Positions 17,473 through 61,205 of a stretch of 64,000 bases of DNA are shown here, piece by piece. The number at the start of each line of letters is the position of its first letter. Positions within the stretch are counted from its first letter, which is position 1. The notes under the pieces are model-generated. The model worked only from the letters and a program-made list of their open reading frames with translations, did no database searches and was not told the DNA's origin. The DNA comes from Schleiferia thermophila (lineage in GTDB: Bacteria > Bacteroidota > Bacteroidia > Flavobacteriales > Schleiferiaceae): assembly GCF_003337435.1 (NCBI RefSeq), contig NZ_QPJS01000002.1, forward strand, positions 248,001-312,000. The letters run 5' to 3'. The translations under genes were made by a program, and so were the position numbers.

Positions 17473-18357
17473 ATGAAAAAAGTGTATTCACTGGCTACAG
17501 CAGTAGTCATTTGGGCCTCTGTCGGAGCCCAACAAGTATATTTCGAAAATTTCGAAAACGGAATGCCCTCAAACTACATCCTGGTGAATCTGGATGGGCT
17601 CACACCCGATGATCCAGGACTGGCTACGATGAAAGACAGTGCCTGGACAGTGCGTCAAATCACTGCTCAAGGATGGCCACACAATCTCAGCGCCTTTTCG
17701 GTCAGTTGGTATGTCAACGATCAGGGACCTTCTGATGACTGGATGATATTACCCCCGATCGCTATTGGATCAGACGCCATTTTGAAGTGGTCGGCACTGG
17801 CCATCACTTCATCGGGTTTGTATCGCGACAGATATCAGATTTTTATCAGCGAAGACACTTCAATAGCCTCTTTTGCTGCTAATCCTCCAGTATTTGATAC
17901 CTCTGATAGTGGTGAAGTGGCTACTCCTGTAAATCGCCAAATAAGTCTTGCAGCTGCCGGATGGGCTAACAAAACCATACGAATAGCCTTCAGAAATTGG
18001 ACAAAGCCTTACAATCCACCCATCAGTCAAGGTGGCAATGAGCTCGCAATAGATAATATTGAAGTTATCAATTCATCGACCGGACTTTCTGAAATCAGCA
18101 ATCTTAAAGGGTTATCGGTCTATCCAAATCCAGCGAAGGATTTTATAAGACTTTCTTTCAACCTGGACAAAGCGGATGAATTGCAGGTATTTATCCTTGA
18201 TTTGGCAGGAAAAGCTGTCAAAAACTACAAACTTGGTCAGTACCAGCCCGGTGAAAATCAGGTTCAAATTGACGTAAGTGACATCAAATCAGGCGTATAC
18301 TTTTTGAGCATCGAAGGCGTTGGCACTATCGCAAGTCAAAAGTTTTCCAAGTTTTGA
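17473..18357 (+). CDS. Secreted choice-of-anchor J protein with type IX sorting domain
   Basis: The 294-residue protein has a signal peptide (MKKVYSLATAVVIWASVGAQ), a domain starting VYFENFENGMPSNY with DDWMILPPI in its middle that matches the choice-of-anchor J/cleaved-adhesin beta-sandwich, and a C-terminal type A Por sorting domain (LSVYPNPAKDFIRLSF ... SGVYFLSIEG). It should cross the outer membrane by the type IX system and be anchored or released after PorU cleavage. The cleaved-adhesin domain is often found in surface peptidases and adhesins, but no catalytic domain is present here. A terminator-like hairpin follows the stop. Confidence 0.85.
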   Translation: MKKVYSLATAVVIWASVGAQQVYFENFENGMPSNYILVNLDGLTPDDPGLATMKDSAWTVRQITAQGWPHNLSAFSVSWYVNDQGPSDDWMILPPIAIGSDAILKWSALAITSSGLYRDRYQIFISEDTSIASFAANPPVFDTSDSGEVATPVNRQISLAAAGWANKTIRIAFRNWTKPYNPPISQGGNELAIDNIEVINSSTGLSEISNLKGLSVYPNPAKDFIRLSFNLDKADELQVFILDLAGKAVKNYKLGQYQPGENQVQIDVSDIKSGVYFLSIEGVGTIASQKFSKF

Positions 18358-18464: not shown

Positions 18465-19391
18465 ATGCGATACACGCTGGCATTGCACGGAGGAGCTGGT
18501 ACGCTGCTACCTGAAGTCATCACTCCGGCTGAGAGGAAGGAATTTACTCAAGCTTTGGACGATGCCCTCAAAACAGGGCTGGAATTGCTGAAAAAAGGTA
18601 GCAGTGCTGTAGAAACTGTAGTACACACTGTAGCAAAACTCGAAGATTGTCCCTTGTTTAATGCAGGAAGAGGTTCGGTTTTCAGCCATGATGGTCGGCA
18701 CGAGATGGATGCAGCTGTAATGAATGGCGCTGACCGAAAGGCCGGTGCGGTAGCTTCTGTTTCCGGTGTAAAAAATCCGGTAATACTGGCCCGGACCATT
18801 ATGGAACATTGCCCTCATGTGTTTTTATCAGGCGCCGGGGCCGAGGAATTTGCACGTCTTCATGAAATTGATTTTGAGTCAGAAAAGTGGTTTTACACCC
18901 GGCACAGATATCGCCAATGGCAAGCAGCCAAAGCCGATAATGCCCTGCTGCTTGACCATACCCCCGATGATGTAAAATACGGTACGGTGGGTGCAGTGGC
19001 CTTGGACGTACATGGCCAACTGGCTGCTGCTACTTCTACCGGAGGACTTACCAACAAGAAGTTTGGAAGAATCGGGGACACCCCATTGATTGGATGCGGT
19101 ACCTATGCGGATGACTTAGTTGCTGTATCGTGTACCGGTTGGGGTGAATTTTTTATACGAACGGTGGCCGCACACCAGGTGGCCATGCGTCACAGGCTTG
19201 GGGAGACCCTTCAATCTGCCTGCCATTCTGTGATAGATGACATAGAAGTCCTTGGAGGTGATGGAGGACTTATTGCCGTCAATGTCAGAGGTGAGATTTC
19301 CATGCCGTTTAATACACCTGGCATGTATCGGGCTGCCGGCGGCAGCCATATTGAAGGTTTTGTCAAAATTTTTAATGAAAAAAAGCCATGA
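18465..19391 (+). CDS. iaaA: Isoaspartyl peptidase/L-asparaginase (Ntn hydrolase)
   Basis: A complete 308-residue plant-type asparaginase. The N terminus LALHGGAG and the self-cleavage site YGTVGAVAL are typical; Thr174 becomes the N-terminal nucleophile after autoproteolysis into alpha and beta subunits. TSTGGLTNKKFGRIGDTPLIG and the CTGWGE segment form the active site. It hydrolyses beta-aspartyl dipeptides and also L-asparagine. It has no signal peptide, so works in the cytoplasm. Its stop overlaps the start of the secreted cyanophycinase-like gene by four bases, which suggests that it finishes the breakdown of beta-Asp-Arg dipeptides released outside. That pathway link is inference. Confidence 0.92.
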   Translation: MRYTLALHGGAGTLLPEVITPAERKEFTQALDDALKTGLELLKKGSSAVETVVHTVAKLEDCPLFNAGRGSVFSHDGRHEMDAAVMNGADRKAGAVASVSGVKNPVILARTIMEHCPHVFLSGAGAEEFARLHEIDFESEKWFYTRHRYRQWQAAKADNALLLDHTPDDVKYGTVGAVALDVHGQLAAATSTGGLTNKKFGRIGDTPLIGCGTYADDLVAVSCTGWGEFFIRTVAAHQVAMRHRLGETLQSACHSVIDDIEVLGGDGGLIAVNVRGEISMPFNTPGMYRAAGGSHIEGFVKIFNEKKP

Positions 19392-20683
19392 AAAAATTGC
19401 TCATACCCTTCGCAATAGCAACTACAACGTTTCAAATCAGTGGTCAATCATACGACCTCTACCACATCGGAAGCATGAACGATACGGTGGTAACCCCTGA
19501 AAGAGGCATTGTACTAATGGGGGGTGGAGGTGAAAACGACCAGGCCATGCGCTGGTTTCTTCAGCGGGCCAATGGCGGTGATGTGGTAGTACTACGAACT
19601 TCCGGAGGAGCTGGTTATCAAAACTATCTCTATCATCAGCTCAATGTGCCGATACATTCAGTACGAACATTGGTTTTAAAATCCCGCCAACATAGTTTCG
19701 ATTCCGTGGTGGTTGATATACTTAGCAAGGCTGAGGCCATTTGGATTGCCGGAGGCAATCAGGCGACTTATGTCAATTTTTGGAAAAACACTCCCGTAGA
19801 CAGCCTTATCAATCATCTCTATCACTCCAAAGGGGGTGTGGTAGGAGGTATCAGTGCTGGTATGGCTGTCCTGACTGGCTATTACTATTCAGCACTCAAT
19901 GCTAGTGCAGAATCAAACGTGGTACTGATGAATCCTTTTCACGCTAGCATCACTCTGGGTGCAAATGACTTTATTCAACTGCCTCATCTTCAAAGGGTGA
20001 TTGGCGATACTCACCTCAACAACCCCGACCGCCGTGGCAGGCTTACCGTATTTATGGCCAGATTGCTTGCAGATCACGGTCATCCGGTTTTGGGTATTGG
20101 AGTGAATGAATATTCAGCTGTCTGCATAAACGACAGCGGTATTGCCCGGGTGTTTGGCGAATATCCGAAATATCCTGATGACCGTGCCACCTTCGTTCGC
20201 CTTGGTTGTGTGCCCCCTTTTGAACCAGAAAACCTTCAGCAAAATACGCCACTTACCTGGAACCGAAGCAATGCTGCCCTGTTTGCATTCGTAGCGCCGG
20301 CTGATACATTAGGCTCCGTTACCTTGGACTTAAATGACTGGAAAACCTCCACTGGTGGTGGTTTTTGGGAAAACTGGTATGTGATAAACGGCTCTTTCAG
20401 CTCAGTGCCCGCATCCCATACCCCTACCTGCAGTGCATACAGTGGACTCGGTTTTCCTGACGAAGGTAGCCATCTGAGAGGAGGCGTTTCTCCTAATCCA
20501 GCTGTCGATAAGTTAACCATCCAAATAAGTCATCCGGGCGATTATACCATCACTGATGTTACCGGCCGCATTATTAGGGTTGGCCATTGGTCTCCGGGGG
20601 AATTTATTTCTGTATCTGAGTTGCATAGCGGCTTGTACATGATTCAAATTCACGGTTACACGTTCAAATTCAATAAAATATGA
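19388..20683 (+). CDS. Secreted cyanophycinase-like S51 peptidase with type IX sorting domain
   Basis: The 431-residue product has a signal peptide, an S51-family core (about residues 37-310) and a C-terminal sorting domain (GGVSPNPAVDKLTIQI ... SGLYMIQIHG). Core motifs are GIVLMGGGGEN, the GGNQATY substrate loop, the nucleophile elbow GGISAGMAV with Ser156, and a DTHLNNPDRRGRL segment that mirrors the DQHF-R-R-GRL region of cyanophycinase, followed by LGIGVNEYSA. Cyanophycinases cut the Asp-Arg polymer cyanophycin to beta-Asp-Arg dipeptides. Extracellular forms are known. It overlaps both neighbours by four bases, between isoaspartyl peptidase and a broken SusC gene. Another acidic-peptide substrate is possible. 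Confidence 0.85.
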   Translation: MKKLLIPFAIATTTFQISGQSYDLYHIGSMNDTVVTPERGIVLMGGGGENDQAMRWFLQRANGGDVVVLRTSGGAGYQNYLYHQLNVPIHSVRTLVLKSRQHSFDSVVVDILSKAEAIWIAGGNQATYVNFWKNTPVDSLINHLYHSKGGVVGGISAGMAVLTGYYYSALNASAESNVVLMNPFHASITLGANDFIQLPHLQRVIGDTHLNNPDRRGRLTVFMARLLADHGHPVLGIGVNEYSAVCINDSGIARVFGEYPKYPDDRATFVRLGCVPPFEPENLQQNTPLTWNRSNAALFAFVAPADTLGSVTLDLNDWKTSTGGGFWENWYVINGSFSSVPASHTPTCSAYSGLGFPDEGSHLRGGVSPNPAVDKLTIQISHPGDYTITDVTGRIIRVGHWSPGEFISVSELHSGLYMIQIHGYTFKFNKI

Positions 20684-21298
20684 AGGCGCTATGTATTGTT
20701 GTTGCTCTGCTGATCACATGTCAAATTCTGTCGGCACAGCATGAGGTTTCCGGCCGGGTCACCGATGCACGAGGCGAGCCCCTTCCCATGGTCAATGTCA
20801 CCTTAAGAGGGACGTCTTTAGGTGTTTCAGCCAATGAGGAGGGCAGGTTCAAAATCTCAATACCGTCCGAAAGGGCAAATGACGGAGTCTTGGTCTTTAG
20901 CTTCGTCGGCTATAAAAGCACATCCATTCCCATACAAGGGCGGAAGAACATCGATGTTGTACTGAAGGAGGATCAACTGATGCTCGAAGAAGTAGTAATC
21001 ACCGCCATTGGCATCAGTCGTGAGCGTAAGCAGATTGGTTATGCTTTGCAAGACGTAAAGGGCGATGAAATCGCCCAAAGCCGTGAACCCAATCTGATCA
21101 ATAGTCTAAATGCCAAAGTAGCGGGTGTACAGATCACCTCTACTTCAGGAACACCGGGCGCTTTGGCAGCCTTTGGGCTGCCTGCTCAGTCACTGACTCC
21201 AGGATCAATCTCTCCGGGCAGGCAACGCAATCGGCCGTGACTACTTCAACAATCCGAACACCCGCTCGATGAATATAAACATCCAACTTAATTTCTAA
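20680..21298 (+). pseudogene. SusC/RagA-type TonB-linked receptor, internally deleted and frameshifted
   Basis: The first 160 or so codons encode a normal SusC start: signal peptide, CarboxypepD_reg domain (HEVSGRVTDARGEPLPMVNV), the LEEVVITAIGISRERKQIGY box and NSLNAKVAGVQITSTSGTPG. The frame then runs into a non-family tail and stops at 21240. In another frame, 21221-21298 reads GNAIGRDYFNNPNTR followed by SMNINIQLNF and a stop, which is the usual SusC C terminus. So about 800 residues of plug and barrel are missing and the two ends are joined out of frame. The remnant starts four bases inside the cyanophycinase-like gene, so it was the importer of that operon. Confidence 0.85.
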
Positions 21299-21304
21299 CG
21301 CACC

Positions 21305-21621
21305 ATGAAGACAAACCTTCTTTTATTCTTGATATTTATCAGTGCTACATCGAGCCGAATGGATAACCTTAATAAAACCCCCAATCGCCCCATTGAAGTA
21401 CCTCTAAATACACTTCTCCCGTCTGCACGGCGAAATACGGCTAACGTAACCGGTCGGGAAGTTTGGCAATACTCCAACCTTCTTGCCAATCAGATGCTTG
21501 GCACCTAACTACAACCTCAGCAAATCAGCCTATATCAGATTGACGAAGTTTCCTTTGGGTATAGCGATATGTACATACGCGATGCACAACCCAGAAATAG
21601 GGTAAGCTCATCAATCCCTTA
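21305..21621 (+). pseudogene. SusD-type lipoprotein remnant, possibly joined to a second SusC fragment
   Basis: The frame from ATG 21305 reads MKTNLLLFLIFISATSSRMD then NLNKTPNRPIEVPLNTLLPSA and NVTGREVWQYSNLLANQM, like the N-terminal part of SusD/RagB nutrient-binding lipoproteins, and stops at 21508. The expected lipobox Cys is replaced (ATSSR). Beyond the stop, two overlapping frames give SKSAYIRLT and EVSFGYS, which together resemble a late SusC barrel segment with a frameshift. No SusD of normal length exists here. The order after SusC is the normal one for a SusCD pair, so this is a decayed partner. Confidence 0.65.
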
Positions 21622-34911: not shown

Positions 34912-37900
34912 CTAACGGAGAATAACCAGTTTTTCGTATTGTTCGGCCTTGCTATCATCTAATGCTGAACGTACTTTCAGGCGGTAAATATAGACACCTT
35001 TACCGATTTTATCTCCAAAATCGTCTAATCCATCCCAACTAATATCTGTAACTCTGGTACCGGGGGATTGAATGAATTGATGAATGGTTTTGACCAGTCT
35101 GCCGGCCACTGTGTAAATTTGAATGGTGATTTCCAGCGGATGATTAGGTCTGTTGTGTTCAAATTGAAACCGGGTGTTGGTGGTAAAAGGATTGGGATAG
35201 TTGAGAAGATGCCGAATCACCATTTCATTGTCTGAAGCGACTATAAACTCGGTAAATGCTGTATTTGGGTTGTTGTAGGTGTCCCAGGCTCTTAACGATA
35301 GGGTATAATGGCCTTCCTGGAGGTTGAAAAATGGATAGCGCACCACACCGCTCTTAAATGTATTCAGGTCTGCTTTGTAGTATTCGTTCAAGACAATGGG
35401 TTGGTCTTCACGACCATTGAGTATAGCTACTATATCGCGGCCTATGCTGTTGCCTAAGGCATTGATGCCTGATGAATCGGAGAGTTTGGCTATCAAAATC
35501 GGGTTGGGGCCAGTAAGACCGCCCATCACAAAGTTTTCATCGTTTAGGAAAAGCCTGATTTCAGGGCCTTCACGGTCTTCGGGGGCATTCTCGTTCAATC
35601 CACCGATAATGGCCTGATCAAAATAGCCTATTGCTTCGTTGACTTCACTAAACGAATACAAGCTGAAGCGCCCGGTACCGAAACTTAAATTGATGTCTTT
35701 TGGAACGATGAATTCGGCCGAGTACAATCCGTTATGCACACTGGCCCTTCCCCGGTATATCATGGAGTTCTGTGTTTCAAATTCAAAGGGAAGACCCACT
35801 CCGTCATTGACCAGTGTTACTCTTTTGGTAGGTTTGTCAAAGACCCGTATTTCTGATTCTCCATTGAAATGCTGCATCAACTGATGGTTTTCATCAGTGA
35901 TCCGCGCATGTACCTTGACGCGATCCAGTGCTTTAAGGGTGTCTGAAAATTGCTGAATTTCAATGTCGTTGATTTTGGTCAGTTCAGTAGTATTGATGGG
36001 AATAGGTAGGCGCAGTGCCGGATCACCAAGGAAGGAAAATCGGAGTCTATCGCTGTTGCCACTGCCGTTTTTGGCATACATTGTTACCATACCTAATGGT
36101 ATATAGCCACCTGCGTCTTTAGTAAAGATGGTGTCAAATATTTGCTCATTGAGTTGTATTCCGGTAAAAGCTCCCACAGCTCGGGTAGTGGAAATTAAGG
36201 CTATACCAGCACCATTCGGATGTGTGAGTACACGCTCACCGGCTGATACGCGCCAGACTTCATCAAAGCGGGAAAATTCGCAGGTAATAGTGACAAACAG
36301 AGGCATATTGTCCATATTGTTCCAGGCTTCGATGTCTTCGATGCGCAGGTATTGCTCATAGCCCCATCCTACTTCACCTCCATGCCCGATGTAGTTGGTA
36401 ATCAGATTGCCTCTTTGTACACTTCGAAAGATGTCTTCTCTGGCCTCAGGATAGAGTTGGGTGCCACTGGTAGAAATTTGCACATAGGCATCGGCGTAGA
36501 TTTTCTGGTGATTGAAAAAGGGATATTTATTTTTGATTTTACTGGCTATTCTTTCGGATGCTTCCATGAAGGATCTTTCCCAGGCGGCATCCACATCGTC
36601 AGTGACCCATAGCAGGTTGCTCCTCCAGCTGCCTTTTGCATTGGGGGAGGTTTCATAATGGATGATCTTGTTGACGACGGTCATGGCCTCTGCGGGGGAT
36701 CTGACCGTCAGGCGGCCAATGGCTATGTCCAGATTTCCGGCCATCAAATTTCCCCCTTCACCAGCGTCGAGCTGTCCATAGAAATCGTCGGTAACAAACG
36801 AAGTATAAAGATTAAATGAGGCTACGGATTGATAAGCGGGGACAAAGTTGGTATTGTTGCTGAGCACATCTCTGTAGTCGTAGGAGGCTGTTCCCATTAG
36901 GGTTACATATCTCAAGCCCTGTCCGGCAGGGGCTTTTGTGAATTGATGCCGAAGAAAATCCCTGATTGCTGCAATATCTTGAATTCCTGAACTGTATTCA
37001 TTATAGATTTGCTCAGTAGTCACTACCAGTGTAGAATATCCATTTTGATTTTTTCTGTAGTCGGCCAGTTTTTGGGCAGCATTGAGAAAGGTCGGATGAG
37101 TGATGACAATGTATGTGTGAGCCGGTATGGCATGAAGATTCTGATTTTCGACCTGTCCGACAAATTCAGGAGTGGGGAAGTTGGAGCCGGTAAAGGCGAT
37201 AAATTCTCTGAGGGTATCGGTATGCTGTAGTGTTTGCCATGTATTTCCGGAAAGTGTTCCGGAGAGACTGTGATAATTAGCGGGATGGGTGACATCCCAC
37301 ACCTGTAGACTGGATGAGGAGTTTTGTATCTGAAATCGCGTAATAGTACCTGAACCTACAGTTCTGGAGTCTCTGAACAATAGTTGATTACCATCCATAG
37401 TCAAGAGCCTTCGTCCATGTATTCGTATCCAGTCTAGCCATGCTGTAGCACCTGGATTGACGGTGTTGTTGAAAACAAGATTTAGGGAAATAGCACCTGA
37501 ACCAGGTGTAAAACTACCCGATTGGAGTGCAGAGGTATATCTGTCAGAAAAATCACCTTGGGCTACTGGCGGGAAGTTGAGCTGCAGTATAGGCTGATTG
37601 CCTATTCTTGCTTCCATAAAAGTGCCGCCTACAGTAGAGCGAGCAATGGCTCTGACAGTAGCTGTAAAGGGTTCTCCAGGTACCGGATTTGGAAAAGTAA
37701 ACGAATACAAATACGAAAGCCTGAAGTCAAACACATCTCCAAACCACTGACGTCCGGTTCGCAGCATGTTGAACTTGCTTTCCTCCAAAAATGCATAATC
37801 GTCAAATGAAACGCATATGCCCGTCTGAGTGCCAGTGGCTTCGGGTCTTTGGGTTATGCGGAGTGCTCCGGGCTGGTCTAGACGAATGAAATAAACCCCC

Positions 37901-38751
37901 TTATCGGCATACCAATGATGCACATGCTGAAAGGTGCCTGTGGTAGTGTTGAACTCCCACCGGTGTGCATTTCTGGCAAAGAACAGAATGTAATCATTTC
38001 CATTGAAAATACCATCTCCATTGGCATCTACTGCCAGGACGGCATTTTCGATAAGGTCGTCAGTCTTCCGTGCGCCGGCTACTTCCGGAAGTAATCCCTC
38101 GGCATTGCCATATACTGCTATTTCGTTGATTCGTATTTCTCCCTGGATGCCATTAGATGCCAGATACTGGGGCGTGAGTTTGTAGATTCCATCTCTTTCC
38201 ACCCGGACTTTTATCCATCGGCCTGATGATAATACTGAGGAGCTTTTAAACTGAGCTATGCGTTTTCTGTCCAGGTTTTTTGAAATGTTTTTGAGTTGGA
38301 TTTCGCATAAGCCGTTTGTAAGGAGATAGATTTTTCCGTTGTCTTCTCGGAGCAAGGGCAGTTGAATTTCTACAGTGTAGCCGTTTGACTTTTGAATTTT
38401 GGCATATCTGGGTTTGAGTACAAGGTCTTGCTCATTGGGAATGAATGCATCAATTTGCGATGTGACCTCTCTCCAGGTAGTCTGATTTAAAAAGATGGTA
38501 TCAATTTCTTCATCGGCTCCAATGCTTTTGCTGATGTGAAAGTAGGGAACCCTGTATTCATCAAATCGTACTGCCTCATGATCTGCTACCGGAATTCTCA
38601 TCAAAAGACTATCGCCTATATAATCATTTTTGATTGTCCAGTCAGTGGAAATTTCTATTTGAAATCCCCGCTGGGCATGCAATGAAATGCTAACTGCTAT
38701 GAAGAGGTAAAACGCAAGGAACTTACTGACGAGATTCTTCATCAATTTCAC
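34912..38751 (-). CDS. porU: Type IX secretion system sortase PorU
   Basis: The 1279-residue protein has a signal peptide, a long beta-rich N-terminal region, a gingipain-type C25 peptidase domain with VTLMGTASYDYRD, the catalytic His790 in NYIGHGGE and Cys824 in TITCEFSRF (34 residues apart, as in the family), and a C-terminal sorting-like domain ending with GKGVYIYRLKVRS. PorU cleaves the sorting domain of exported proteins and joins them to anionic lipopolysaccharide. Cargo in this window includes the genes at 17.5, 19.4 and 27.0 kb. It is the first gene of the porU-porV pair and has a -7 box about 45 bases upstream. Confidence 0.95.
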   Translation of the reverse strand: MKLMKNLVSKFLAFYLFIAVSISLHAQRGFQIEISTDWTIKNDYIGDSLLMRIPVADHEAVRFDEYRVPYFHISKSIGADEEIDTIFLNQTTWREVTSQIDAFIPNEQDLVLKPRYAKIQKSNGYTVEIQLPLLREDNGKIYLLTNGLCEIQLKNISKNLDRKRIAQFKSSSVLSSGRWIKVRVERDGIYKLTPQYLASNGIQGEIRINEIAVYGNAEGLLPEVAGARKTDDLIENAVLAVDANGDGIFNGNDYILFFARNAHRWEFNTTTGTFQHVHHWYADKGVYFIRLDQPGALRITQRPEATGTQTGICVSFDDYAFLEESKFNMLRTGRQWFGDVFDFRLSYLYSFTFPNPVPGEPFTATVRAIARSTVGGTFMEARIGNQPILQLNFPPVAQGDFSDRYTSALQSGSFTPGSGAISLNLVFNNTVNPGATAWLDWIRIHGRRLLTMDGNQLLFRDSRTVGSGTITRFQIQNSSSSLQVWDVTHPANYHSLSGTLSGNTWQTLQHTDTLREFIAFTGSNFPTPEFVGQVENQNLHAIPAHTYIVITHPTFLNAAQKLADYRKNQNGYSTLVVTTEQIYNEYSSGIQDIAAIRDFLRHQFTKAPAGQGLRYVTLMGTASYDYRDVLSNNTNFVPAYQSVASFNLYTSFVTDDFYGQLDAGEGGNLMAGNLDIAIGRLTVRSPAEAMTVVNKIIHYETSPNAKGSWRSNLLWVTDDVDAAWERSFMEASERIASKIKNKYPFFNHQKIYADAYVQISTSGTQLYPEAREDIFRSVQRGNLITNYIGHGGEVGWGYEQYLRIEDIEAWNNMDNMPLFVTITCEFSRFDEVWRVSAGERVLTHPNGAGIALISTTRAVGAFTGIQLNEQIFDTIFTKDAGGYIPLGMVTMYAKNGSGNSDRLRFSFLGDPALRLPIPINTTELTKINDIEIQQFSDTLKALDRVKVHARITDENHQLMQHFNGESEIRVFDKPTKRVTLVNDGVGLPFEFETQNSMIYRGRASVHNGLYSAEFIVPKDINLSFGTGRFSLYSFSEVNEAIGYFDQAIIGGLNENAPEDREGPEIRLFLNDENFVMGGLTGPNPILIAKLSDSSGINALGNSIGRDIVAILNGREDQPIVLNEYYKADLNTFKSGVVRYPFFNLQEGHYTLSLRAWDTYNNPNTAFTEFIVASDNEMVIRHLLNYPNPFTTNTRFQFEHNRPNHPLEITIQIYTVAGRLVKTIHQFIQSPGTRVTDISWDGLDDFGDKIGKGVYIYRLKVRSALDDSKAEQYEKLVILR

Positions 38752-60459: not shown

Positions 60460-60506
60460 ATATATTGCTCATTAAAAAAGTACCTGTATCATCAATATTA
60501 CCTCTC

Positions 60507-61205
60507 ATGAAACTGTTGTTAGCAAGTACATCAAAGCTCTTTGGTCAGAAATATTTAGAATATTTAAGAGAGGAAATAGAGGTCTTTTTCAATCACACAG
60601 ACCAGATTGTATTTGTGCCATATGCCAGGCCCGGAGCCATCAGCTGGGACGATTACACGGCCATAGCCAGAGAAGGGTTTTTACCATTCCGAATCAAGGT
60701 AAAAGGAATTCACGAGCTGGATCATCCTTTTCGACAGTTGAGTGATTTTGGAGGAATTTTTACAGGTGGTGGCAACACATTTCTTTTACTTAAAACGCTT
60801 TATGAAACTGAACACTTTACATTACTGCGTGAAAAAGTAATCAACGGAGCTCCATATATGGGCAGCAGCGCCGGCTCGAATGTCGCTGGTTTAAGTATTG
60901 GCACTACCAACGACATGCCTATCGTGTATCCGCCTGATTTTGCAGCTTTTGGTTTTGTGCCTTTTAACATCAATCCACACTACGTGGATCCTGATCCCAC
61001 CAGCAGGCACATGGGTGAAACGCGTGAGCAGAGAATTCTTGAATTTCACCATTTTAATCCCCAGCCCGTGATAGGTCTGAGAGAAGGTAGTTGGATCCAA
61101 GTGAGTGACAAGCTGTTTGAGTTAAAAGGTCCTTACACAGCACGCTTATTCCGAAGGGACAGCATCCCCATAGAGCTTGAGCCTGGCAGATTTGACCTGA
61201 ACTAG
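60507..61205 (+). CDS. pepE: Dipeptidase E (peptidase S51)
   Basis: From ATG 60507 the product is 232 residues, the usual PepE length. The nucleophile is Ser121 in MGSSAGSN, with the FTGGGNTFLLL loop and GLREGSWIQV downstream. PepE hydrolyses dipeptides with N-terminal aspartate in the cytoplasm. It belongs to the same fold family as the cyanophycinase-like enzyme at 19.4 kb. A start 14 codons upstream (60465) would add residues outside the family and is rejected. The last 60 bases overlap the convergent ccoI gene. Confidence 0.9.
   Translation: MKLLLASTSKLFGQKYLEYLREEIEVFFNHTDQIVFVPYARPGAISWDDYTAIAREGFLPFRIKVKGIHELDHPFRQLSDFGGIFTGGGNTFLLLKTLYETEHFTLLREKVINGAPYMGSSAGSNVAGLSIGTTNDMPIVYPPDFAAFGFVPFNINPHYVDPDPTSRHMGETREQRILEFHHFNPQPVIGLREGSWIQVSDKLFELKGPYTARLFRRDSIPIELEPGRFDLN

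Follow-up and report, generated by a model that had tools for sequence, protein, structure and literature searches.

A possible relic of a SusCD-type cyanophycin operon in Schleiferia thermophila: an isoaspartyl peptidase, a type IX sorted S51 peptidase and decayed susC and susD genes

Cyanophycin is a nitrogen store of cyanobacteria. A cyanophycin utilisation locus is known from the Bacteroidetes strain L21-Spi-D4, where it joins cyanophycinase genes to one for an isoaspartyl dipeptidase and to a transporter, and serves cyanophycin scavenging (Ben Hania 2017, as described in PMC10206079), and in Citromicrobium sp. JLT1363 a TonB receptor gene lies close to a cyanophycinase gene, with cyanophycin as the proposed substrate (PMC3400609). 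Here, we report a locus of Schleiferia thermophila, located within a stretch of 64,000 bases that was analysed as a whole (the window), in which a gene for an isoaspartyl peptidase (iaaA) is followed by a gene for an S51 peptidase with a type IX sorting domain and by what is left of susC and susD. By the description in PMC10206079, the L21-Spi-D4 locus carries iadA, whereas the window has iaaA and a type IX sorted S51 gene, with a SusC/SusD pair (SusCD) that is present in relatives and wrecked here. The Citromicrobium locus shares the outer-membrane receptor gene beside the cyanophycinase gene; SusD, type IX sorting and iaaA go unmentioned as far as the account in PMC3400609 extends, unlike in the window locus and its relatives. 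CphE of P. alcaligenes DIP1, the product of a 1260-base gene, is likewise a secreted S51 enzyme with Thr in place of Gln173; by its description it keeps Arg228 (i.e., Arg178 of cyanobacterial CphB), whereas Pro213 takes this place in the S51 protein of the window, which also bears a type IX tail, and CphE of Bacillus megaterium is also named as an extracellular cyanophycinase in the same paper (PMC3235067). Two S51 cyanophycinase-type peptidases occur in strain Omega (Balneolaeota), a heterotrophic satellite of cyanobacteria, and the description in PMC6243061 gives no comparable locus. The original prediction, made from the letters of the window, spoke of a new kind of nutrient locus; this is too strong, because a Bacteroidetes cyanophycin locus and a TonB receptor beside a cyanophycinase gene are already in print (PMC10206079, PMC3400609).

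The locus has three open reading frames on the plus strand, each overlapping the next: 18465-19391 (308 aa), 19388-20683 (431 aa) and 20680-21240 (186 aa). Both overlaps, iaaA/S51 and S51/susC (the SusC-like start at 20680), are four bases long, just as predicted, and read ATGA, and they place the genes of the enzymes, whose substrate is a prediction, in one direction with the SusCD remnants. Since susC and susD are broken and the enzyme genes look intact, we consider the locus, with moderate confidence, to be the relic of an iaaA-S51-susC-susD operon of the SusCD type for cyanophycin or a very similar beta-aspartyl polymer, its enzymes still open and its transporter lost. In this scheme, type IX secretion would bring the S51 enzyme to the cell surface, where it would clip beta-Asp dipeptides from the polymer outside, and the cytoplasmic IaaA would split beta-Asp-Arg into Asp and Arg. 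A dedicated SusCD uptake would once have existed here and would now be lost, and another transporter or the second, signal-bearing IaaA of the genome would be needed. The earlier proposal of cleavage outside, SusCD uptake and hydrolysis inside therefore stands in part: intact loci in relatives and S51-IaaA fusions at TonB receptors agree with it, but the uptake step cannot run from the window locus because the uptake pair is wrecked.

The S51 protein matches the Pfam families Peptidase_S51 (40.1 bits, cut-off 23.9) and Por_Secre_tail (29.6 bits, cut-off 27), as well as TIGR04183, the type IX sorting domain of type A (30.2 vs 23 bits). GISAGMA lies at residues 154-160 and DTHLNNPDRRGRL at residues 207-219; both, like the sorting domain, had been pointed out beforehand. 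The structure model (mean pLDDT 90.5) aligns to Synechocystis cyanophycinase 3en0 with Z 27.7 and rmsd 2.3 over 254 residues, and to PepE-type and other S51 peptidases with Z 14-20. The Pseudobacteroides "pseudo-CphB" (7uqv), on which a literature search found no paper, is also a close fold match. Residues 363-431 of the model align to C-terminal domains of type IX substrates with Z about 10 (10.5 to 8glj_D). PorU, the type IX sortase, is encoded in the window (NF033707, 1285.2 vs 420 bits), so a type IX secretion route exists in this genome. By its signal-like start (seen by eye), its type A sorting domain and the presence of PorU, the S51 protein fits the predicted profile of type IX cargo; the secretion claimed earlier is consistent with the signal-like stretch and the sorting tail, and it is from the tail that a place at the cell surface is predicted. 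A type IX tail scan of 41 of the 81 S51 family members matched 35 of them; a single-query tail test on 80 relatives gave 29 and, being weak, was set aside.

The S51 family alignment contains the window protein and 80 named relatives (81 rows), and is numbered after CphB, with position 178 taken from alignments and not from model coordinates. Gln101, Ser132, Asp172, His174, Arg180, Arg183 and the catalytic Glu, which include the Ser-His-Glu triad, are kept in all 81 members; Gln173 is replaced by Thr or Ser. At the places of the pocket Gln, Asp and Arg180 of the S51 protein, PepE from the same genome has Thr, Asn and Pro in the alignment. Identity to the S51 protein is 36% (S51 part) for a P. 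megaterium plasmid protein, 37% for a Pseudoalteromonas protein and 37-38% for two Novosphingobium proteins, and lower, 20-26%, for the five CphB proteins compared. The pocket residues kept throughout and a fold nearest to cyanophycinase argue for the cyanophycin-type reading, and the S51 protein falls in the cyanophycinase neighbourhood of S51, with cyanophycin hydrolysis as a prediction only. A second, long S51 type (660-694 aa) was seen at L036:9087-11171 and L137:6463-8445; it retains Arg178, with Asp in place of the catalytic Glu. Its gene lies downstream of a transporter-like gene in L036 and upstream of a YfcC-like gene in L137, and a sorting tail was found in L137.

IaaA, predicted as an isoaspartyl peptidase gene from the outset, matches Asparaginase_2 of Pfam at 339.8 bits (cut-off 27) and has 2zak as its best Protein Data Bank (PDB) relative (E 5.1e-82). 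Beta-subunit chains in the PDB (1jn9_B, for example) begin their alignment at its Thr174, which we take to be the nucleophile. It stays under the cut-off of PRK10226, the NCBIfam beta-aspartyl-peptidase equivalog (310.4 vs 567 bits). The sequence begins at the domain, and no signal peptide is visible by eye. Taken together, the 308-aa protein has the features of an isoaspartyl peptidase with Asparaginase_2 fold and a predicted self-cleaving Thr. Among 46 other IaaA genes (hand-picked, mostly from IaaA search matches, and including the second copy of the genome, which has a signal-like start), ten adjoin genes for cyanophycin synthetase (CphA1) and CphB, and the synthetase is over its cut-off in all ten genomes. 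In an IaaA tree of 46 rows, from which one of the ten (G030) was left out as a fragment, the window IaaA groups with eight of the nine synthetase-linked rows kept (support 83/88), together with four rows without synthetase label; this grouping is suggestive and not firm. The window would share its IaaA type with cphA-cphB-iaaA storage clusters, but its genome has no cyanophycin synthetase over the cut-off: 12 part matches were found there, none over it.

Three S51 genes are present in the genome: the S51 gene under study, a separate paralogue for a PepE-type dipeptidase E (window 60465-61205, 270.7 vs 156 bits), and a gene for a lipoprotein-like CphB (L160:8606-9484, at 508.7 kb on contig C1) whose 123.9 bits fall just under the 126.6 cut-off. 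This CphB type had no match at E 1e-25 in other genomes of the same family in the 395-genome sample described below. Because it has a lipoprotein-like CphB and no synthetase over the cut-off, the organism would fit a cyanophycin scavenger rather than a producer.

Genes for SusC and then SusD had been predicted downstream; both are in fact remnants, with 161 plus 24-26 residues left of SusC and about 83 of SusD. The 186-aa frame matches only positions 2-139 of a 981-position SusC model and scores 141.2 bits against TIGR04056 (cut-off 368.25); its N-terminal remnant (161 residues, to 21162) is 47.8% identical to a 1029-aa SusC-like protein of L138. The C-terminal remnant lies in another frame, with its stop at 21296-21298, and matches the SusC C-terminus in L137 (E 6.7e-6) and a SusC of the own genome in L145 (6e-4). 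SusD starts at 21305 and is open for 67 codons up to a stop at 21506-21508, with no recognisable match beyond 21556; it is 34% identical over 83 residues (E 5.1e-8) to an own-genome SusD (L145:12486-13805), which is intact, 439 aa long, and scores 219.3 bits for SusD-like_2. About 2.5 kb of SusC (compared with the 1029-aa SusC of L138) and about 1 kb of SusD (compared with the 439-aa own SusD) are missing. The short model match, the frame shift and the in-frame stop rule out an intact SusC or SusD in the assembled window. Since SusC and SusD have each lost sequence, the frame changes and a stop intervenes, the remnants probably reflect the decay of a former operon. No second copy of the 61-base stretch 21163-21223 was found in the window and the own-genome stretches examined. 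A short inverted repeat, GGCAGCC-TTTG-GGCTGCC, lies between the SusC remnants at 21165-21182.

Relatives show what an intact locus may look like. The search suggested with the original prediction, for the same four-gene order with intact SusC and SusD, finds it in G279: iaaA-cphB-susC-susD, in the order of the window and all open, with a cyanophycinase over the cut-off (136.5 vs 126.6 bits) whose gene overlaps iaaA by one base; the window-type S51 gene of this genome is on another contig. In G053 and G151 of genus g21, which resemble the named Aquimarina locus L071 and so are probably Aquimarina, the order is SusC-SusD-IaaA-CphB-YfcC-like transporter-window-type S51-arginine-deiminase-like-CtlX. 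CphB is lipoprotein-like in these loci (167.8 bits in G053); L071 has the same order as far as S51, and of the three such loci read, two continue beyond S51 with the arginine-deiminase-like gene and CtlX. Aequorivita L133 and G183 both have SusC-SusD-two lipoprotein-like genes-CphB-M20-like peptidase-window-type S51, and L137 (Bacteroidales) has long S51-YfcC-like-window-type S51-two regulator-like genes-SusC-SusD. SusC and SusD are open in G279, G053, G151 and others. On Novosphingobium plasmids (L204:4725-6842 and L205:3151-5115) single open frames of 705 and 654 codons join S51 (36.6-37.5 bits) to a complete Asparaginase_2 domain (342-345 bits), beside a divergent TonB receptor gene and then an AsnC-type regulator gene (tested in L205); this fusion is an apparent two-step cyanophycin enzyme. 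In Pseudoalteromonas xiamenensis, genes for a TonB receptor, an annotated cyanophycinase and a window-like S51 protein stand side by side. The G279 order, the loci joining SusCD, IaaA, CphB, YfcC-like transporter and S51, and the fusions beside TonB receptors all point to a cyanophycin-type role. Among 60 genomes, IaaA and S51 are directly adjacent only in that of the window; they are 2.4 kb apart in G053. The nearest named relative is from Thermaurantimonas aggregans (74% in the S51 part), and none of the neighbours looked for was found around its S51 gene in the stretch examined. A quick S51 family tree (SH-aLRT support only) places SusCD-located members on several branches, with six parsimony changes, second copies counted.

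Neighbour counts were made on 80 named S51 family loci, many of them cut by contig ends. Please note that each protein was sought with a single query, and SusD with a profile built from four sequences, and distant SusC or SusD may therefore be missed. CphB was found in two loci, a YfcC-like gene in two, SusD in three and a SusC-like match in five. Among 395 genomes sampled from one order, 25 have the window S51 type at E 1e-20 or better (20 of these at 1e-40), and 15, that of the window included, have a CphB like the one in L179; five of the 15 also have the S51 type (one-sided Fisher P 4e-4, or 0.003 without the own genome). By genus the co-occurrence is 4/4 vs 13/108 (P 1.3e-4, or 0.001 without the genus of the window), where genera were counted by hand and the relatives in all of these tests are not independent. 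Of the 14 other genomes with this CphB, 12 belong to genus g21; 11 have SusC and SusD in the flanks of at most about 10 kb (in one of them SusD takes up two frames) and three do not. This co-occurrence, together with the grouping of the window IaaA with synthetase-adjoining IaaA, argues for the cyanophycin-type reading. The earlier refuting case, i.e., relatives in which the genes are never neighbours, is not what we see, for they are neighbours in several lineages; however, this holds for a minority of the family only.

Several observations weigh against a cyanophycin operon. The S51 protein scores 62.5 bits against TIGR02069, the curated cyanophycinase equivalog (cut-off 126.6); a P. megaterium plasmid protein annotated as cyanophycinase is likewise under it (75.4 bits). 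Among the pocket residues of CphB, whose importance is documented and of which Arg178 is critical (PMC3235067, PMC12661447), Arg178 is Pro in 80 of the 81 aligned members (Pro213 in the window) and Arg in L133 only. As a strict claim, that the S51 protein is a cyanophycinase is rejected on this residue and on the TIGR02069 score. The PepE of the genome also aligns with Pro-Asp at 178-179, so the specificity may have shifted towards that of PepE. The SusC remnant is nearer to the SusC of L138, at 48% identity, than to the main SusC from the intact loci used for comparison, at 28-34%, and L138 shows no cyanophycin gene over 8.9 kb; the window IaaA sits on a long branch of its tree. No SusC/SusD pair was detected in the stretch examined of 77 of the 80 named loci, and IaaA was detected near S51 in one of the 80. 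Within the 20 S51-type genomes, IaaA lies within 10 kb in three (that of the window, G053 and G151), two of which are one genus, and only two of the 12 g21 genomes with the L179-like CphB have the S51 type.

Some of these points would also suit an S51 family of secreted isoaspartyl peptidases for aged or damaged protein, partnered by IaaA and, in Flavobacteriaceae, by protein-isoaspartate methyltransferase. The change of Arg178 to Pro favours it, IaaA enzymes are promiscuous for isoaspartyl dipeptides (as far as PMC10206079 describes them), and in 21 of the 80 named loci, L061, L080 and L092 among them, a protein-L-isoaspartate methyltransferase-like gene lies no more than 300 bases away on the same strand (upstream of S51 in 19, downstream in two, with gaps of 0-3 bases in many; one scores 224.5 vs 188 bits in NCBIfam). 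However, all 22 rows so labelled (the 21 and L200) fall in one 26-row branch, with four parsimony changes, and these members share a wider conserved gene block, so the link may be a single event; SusCD-located members occur on several branches, and L133 and L199, of the methyltransferase branch itself, adjoin cyanophycinase in SusCD loci. A general methyltransferase link was downgraded for its confinement to this branch; the link leaves some probability to an isoaspartyl-protein role, which we regard as unlikely for the family. We are similarly doubtful that the Bacteroidota-wide, surface-delivered clade with Pro for Arg178 forms a new class of extracellular beta-aspartyl peptidases that act not on plain cyanophycin but on, for example, protein with isoaspartyl damage or a different beta-aspartyl polymer, and that it was recruited repeatedly beside IaaA, the methyltransferase and TonB/SusCD, with related forms fused to IaaA.

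An exported peptidase of another S51 type that neighbours iaaA by chance, either a PepE-like aspartyl dipeptidase or an MccG-like antibiotic resistance protein, seems very improbable. Such roles are known among S51 members (PMC9239234, as far as its account was available), and the Pro-Asp of the family recurs in the PepE of the genome; but PepE lacks the pocket Gln, Asp and Arg180 that the S51 protein keeps, structure comparison favours cyanophycinase, and the four-base overlap with iaaA and the S51-IaaA fusions elsewhere speak against chance. Even less credit is due to an assembly error that damaged SusC and SusD in a draft of 23 contigs and left the operon intact in the organism. Among the 60 genomes searched there is no second one of the genus; yet the stretch lies inside a 517,830-base contig, the window has no N, and one collapse would not account for sequence lost from SusC and from SusD separately, together with a shifted frame and an in-frame stop. 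The most likely reading is a decayed SusCD-type operon for cyanophycin or a very similar polymer.

If this is true, Bacteroidota would handle a nitrogen-rich amino-acid polymer as they do polysaccharides, i.e., with an enzyme at the surface, uptake by SusCD and hydrolysis inside the cell, and such cyanophycin loci would also decay. The isoaspartyl dipeptidase of Bacteroidota with cyanophycin genes is stated to be undiscovered (PMC10206079), and the SusCD-IaaA-cyanophycinase loci and the S51-IaaA fusion make it directly testable, while the Pro213 clade offers a natural test of the role of Arg178. In our searches, which covered open-licence papers, the type IX sorted clade with Pro213, the SusCD form of the locus and the fusion of S51 to IaaA did not turn up, and nor did cyanophycinase together with the type IX secretion system. 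Of the papers that mention both cyanophycin and SusC, the one on Citromicrobium (PMC3400609) is the nearest; cyanophycinase with SusD led to no account of such a locus in the text available.

Table 1. Positions of the genes, segments and remnants discussed (window coordinates)
Feature	Position	Strand	Evidence
iaaA, isoaspartyl peptidase/L-asparaginase, 308 aa	18465..19391	+	Asparaginase_2; PDB relatives
S51 peptidase (431 aa) with signal-like stretch at the N-terminus and type IX sorting domain at the C-terminus	19388..20683	+	Peptidase_S51, Por_Secre_tail
Nucleophile elbow GISAGMA, Ser156 = Ser132 of Synechocystis CphB	19847..19867	+	Ser in 81/81 aligned members
Pocket segment DTHLNNPDRRGRL, Pro213 at the place of CphB Arg178	20006..20044	+	Alignment, Pro in 80/81
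Type IX secretion C-terminal domain, residues 363-431	20474..20680	+	Z 10.5 to 8glj_D; TIGR04183
SusC remnant, N-terminal 161 residues	20680..21162	+	SusC comparison, TIGR04056
Stretch without match between the two SusC remnants, 55 bases	21163..21217	+	No further copy found
SusC remnant in another frame, 24-26 C-terminal residues plus stop	21218..21298	+	SusC C-terminus matches
SusD remnant, about first 83 residues, stop codon at 21506-21508	21305..21556	+	Own-genome SusD match
PorU type IX sortase	34918..38235	-	NF033707, 1285.2 bits

A further gene on the same strand, 107 bases upstream of iaaA (17473-18357), encodes a choice-of-anchor J protein that likewise bears a type IX sorting tail.

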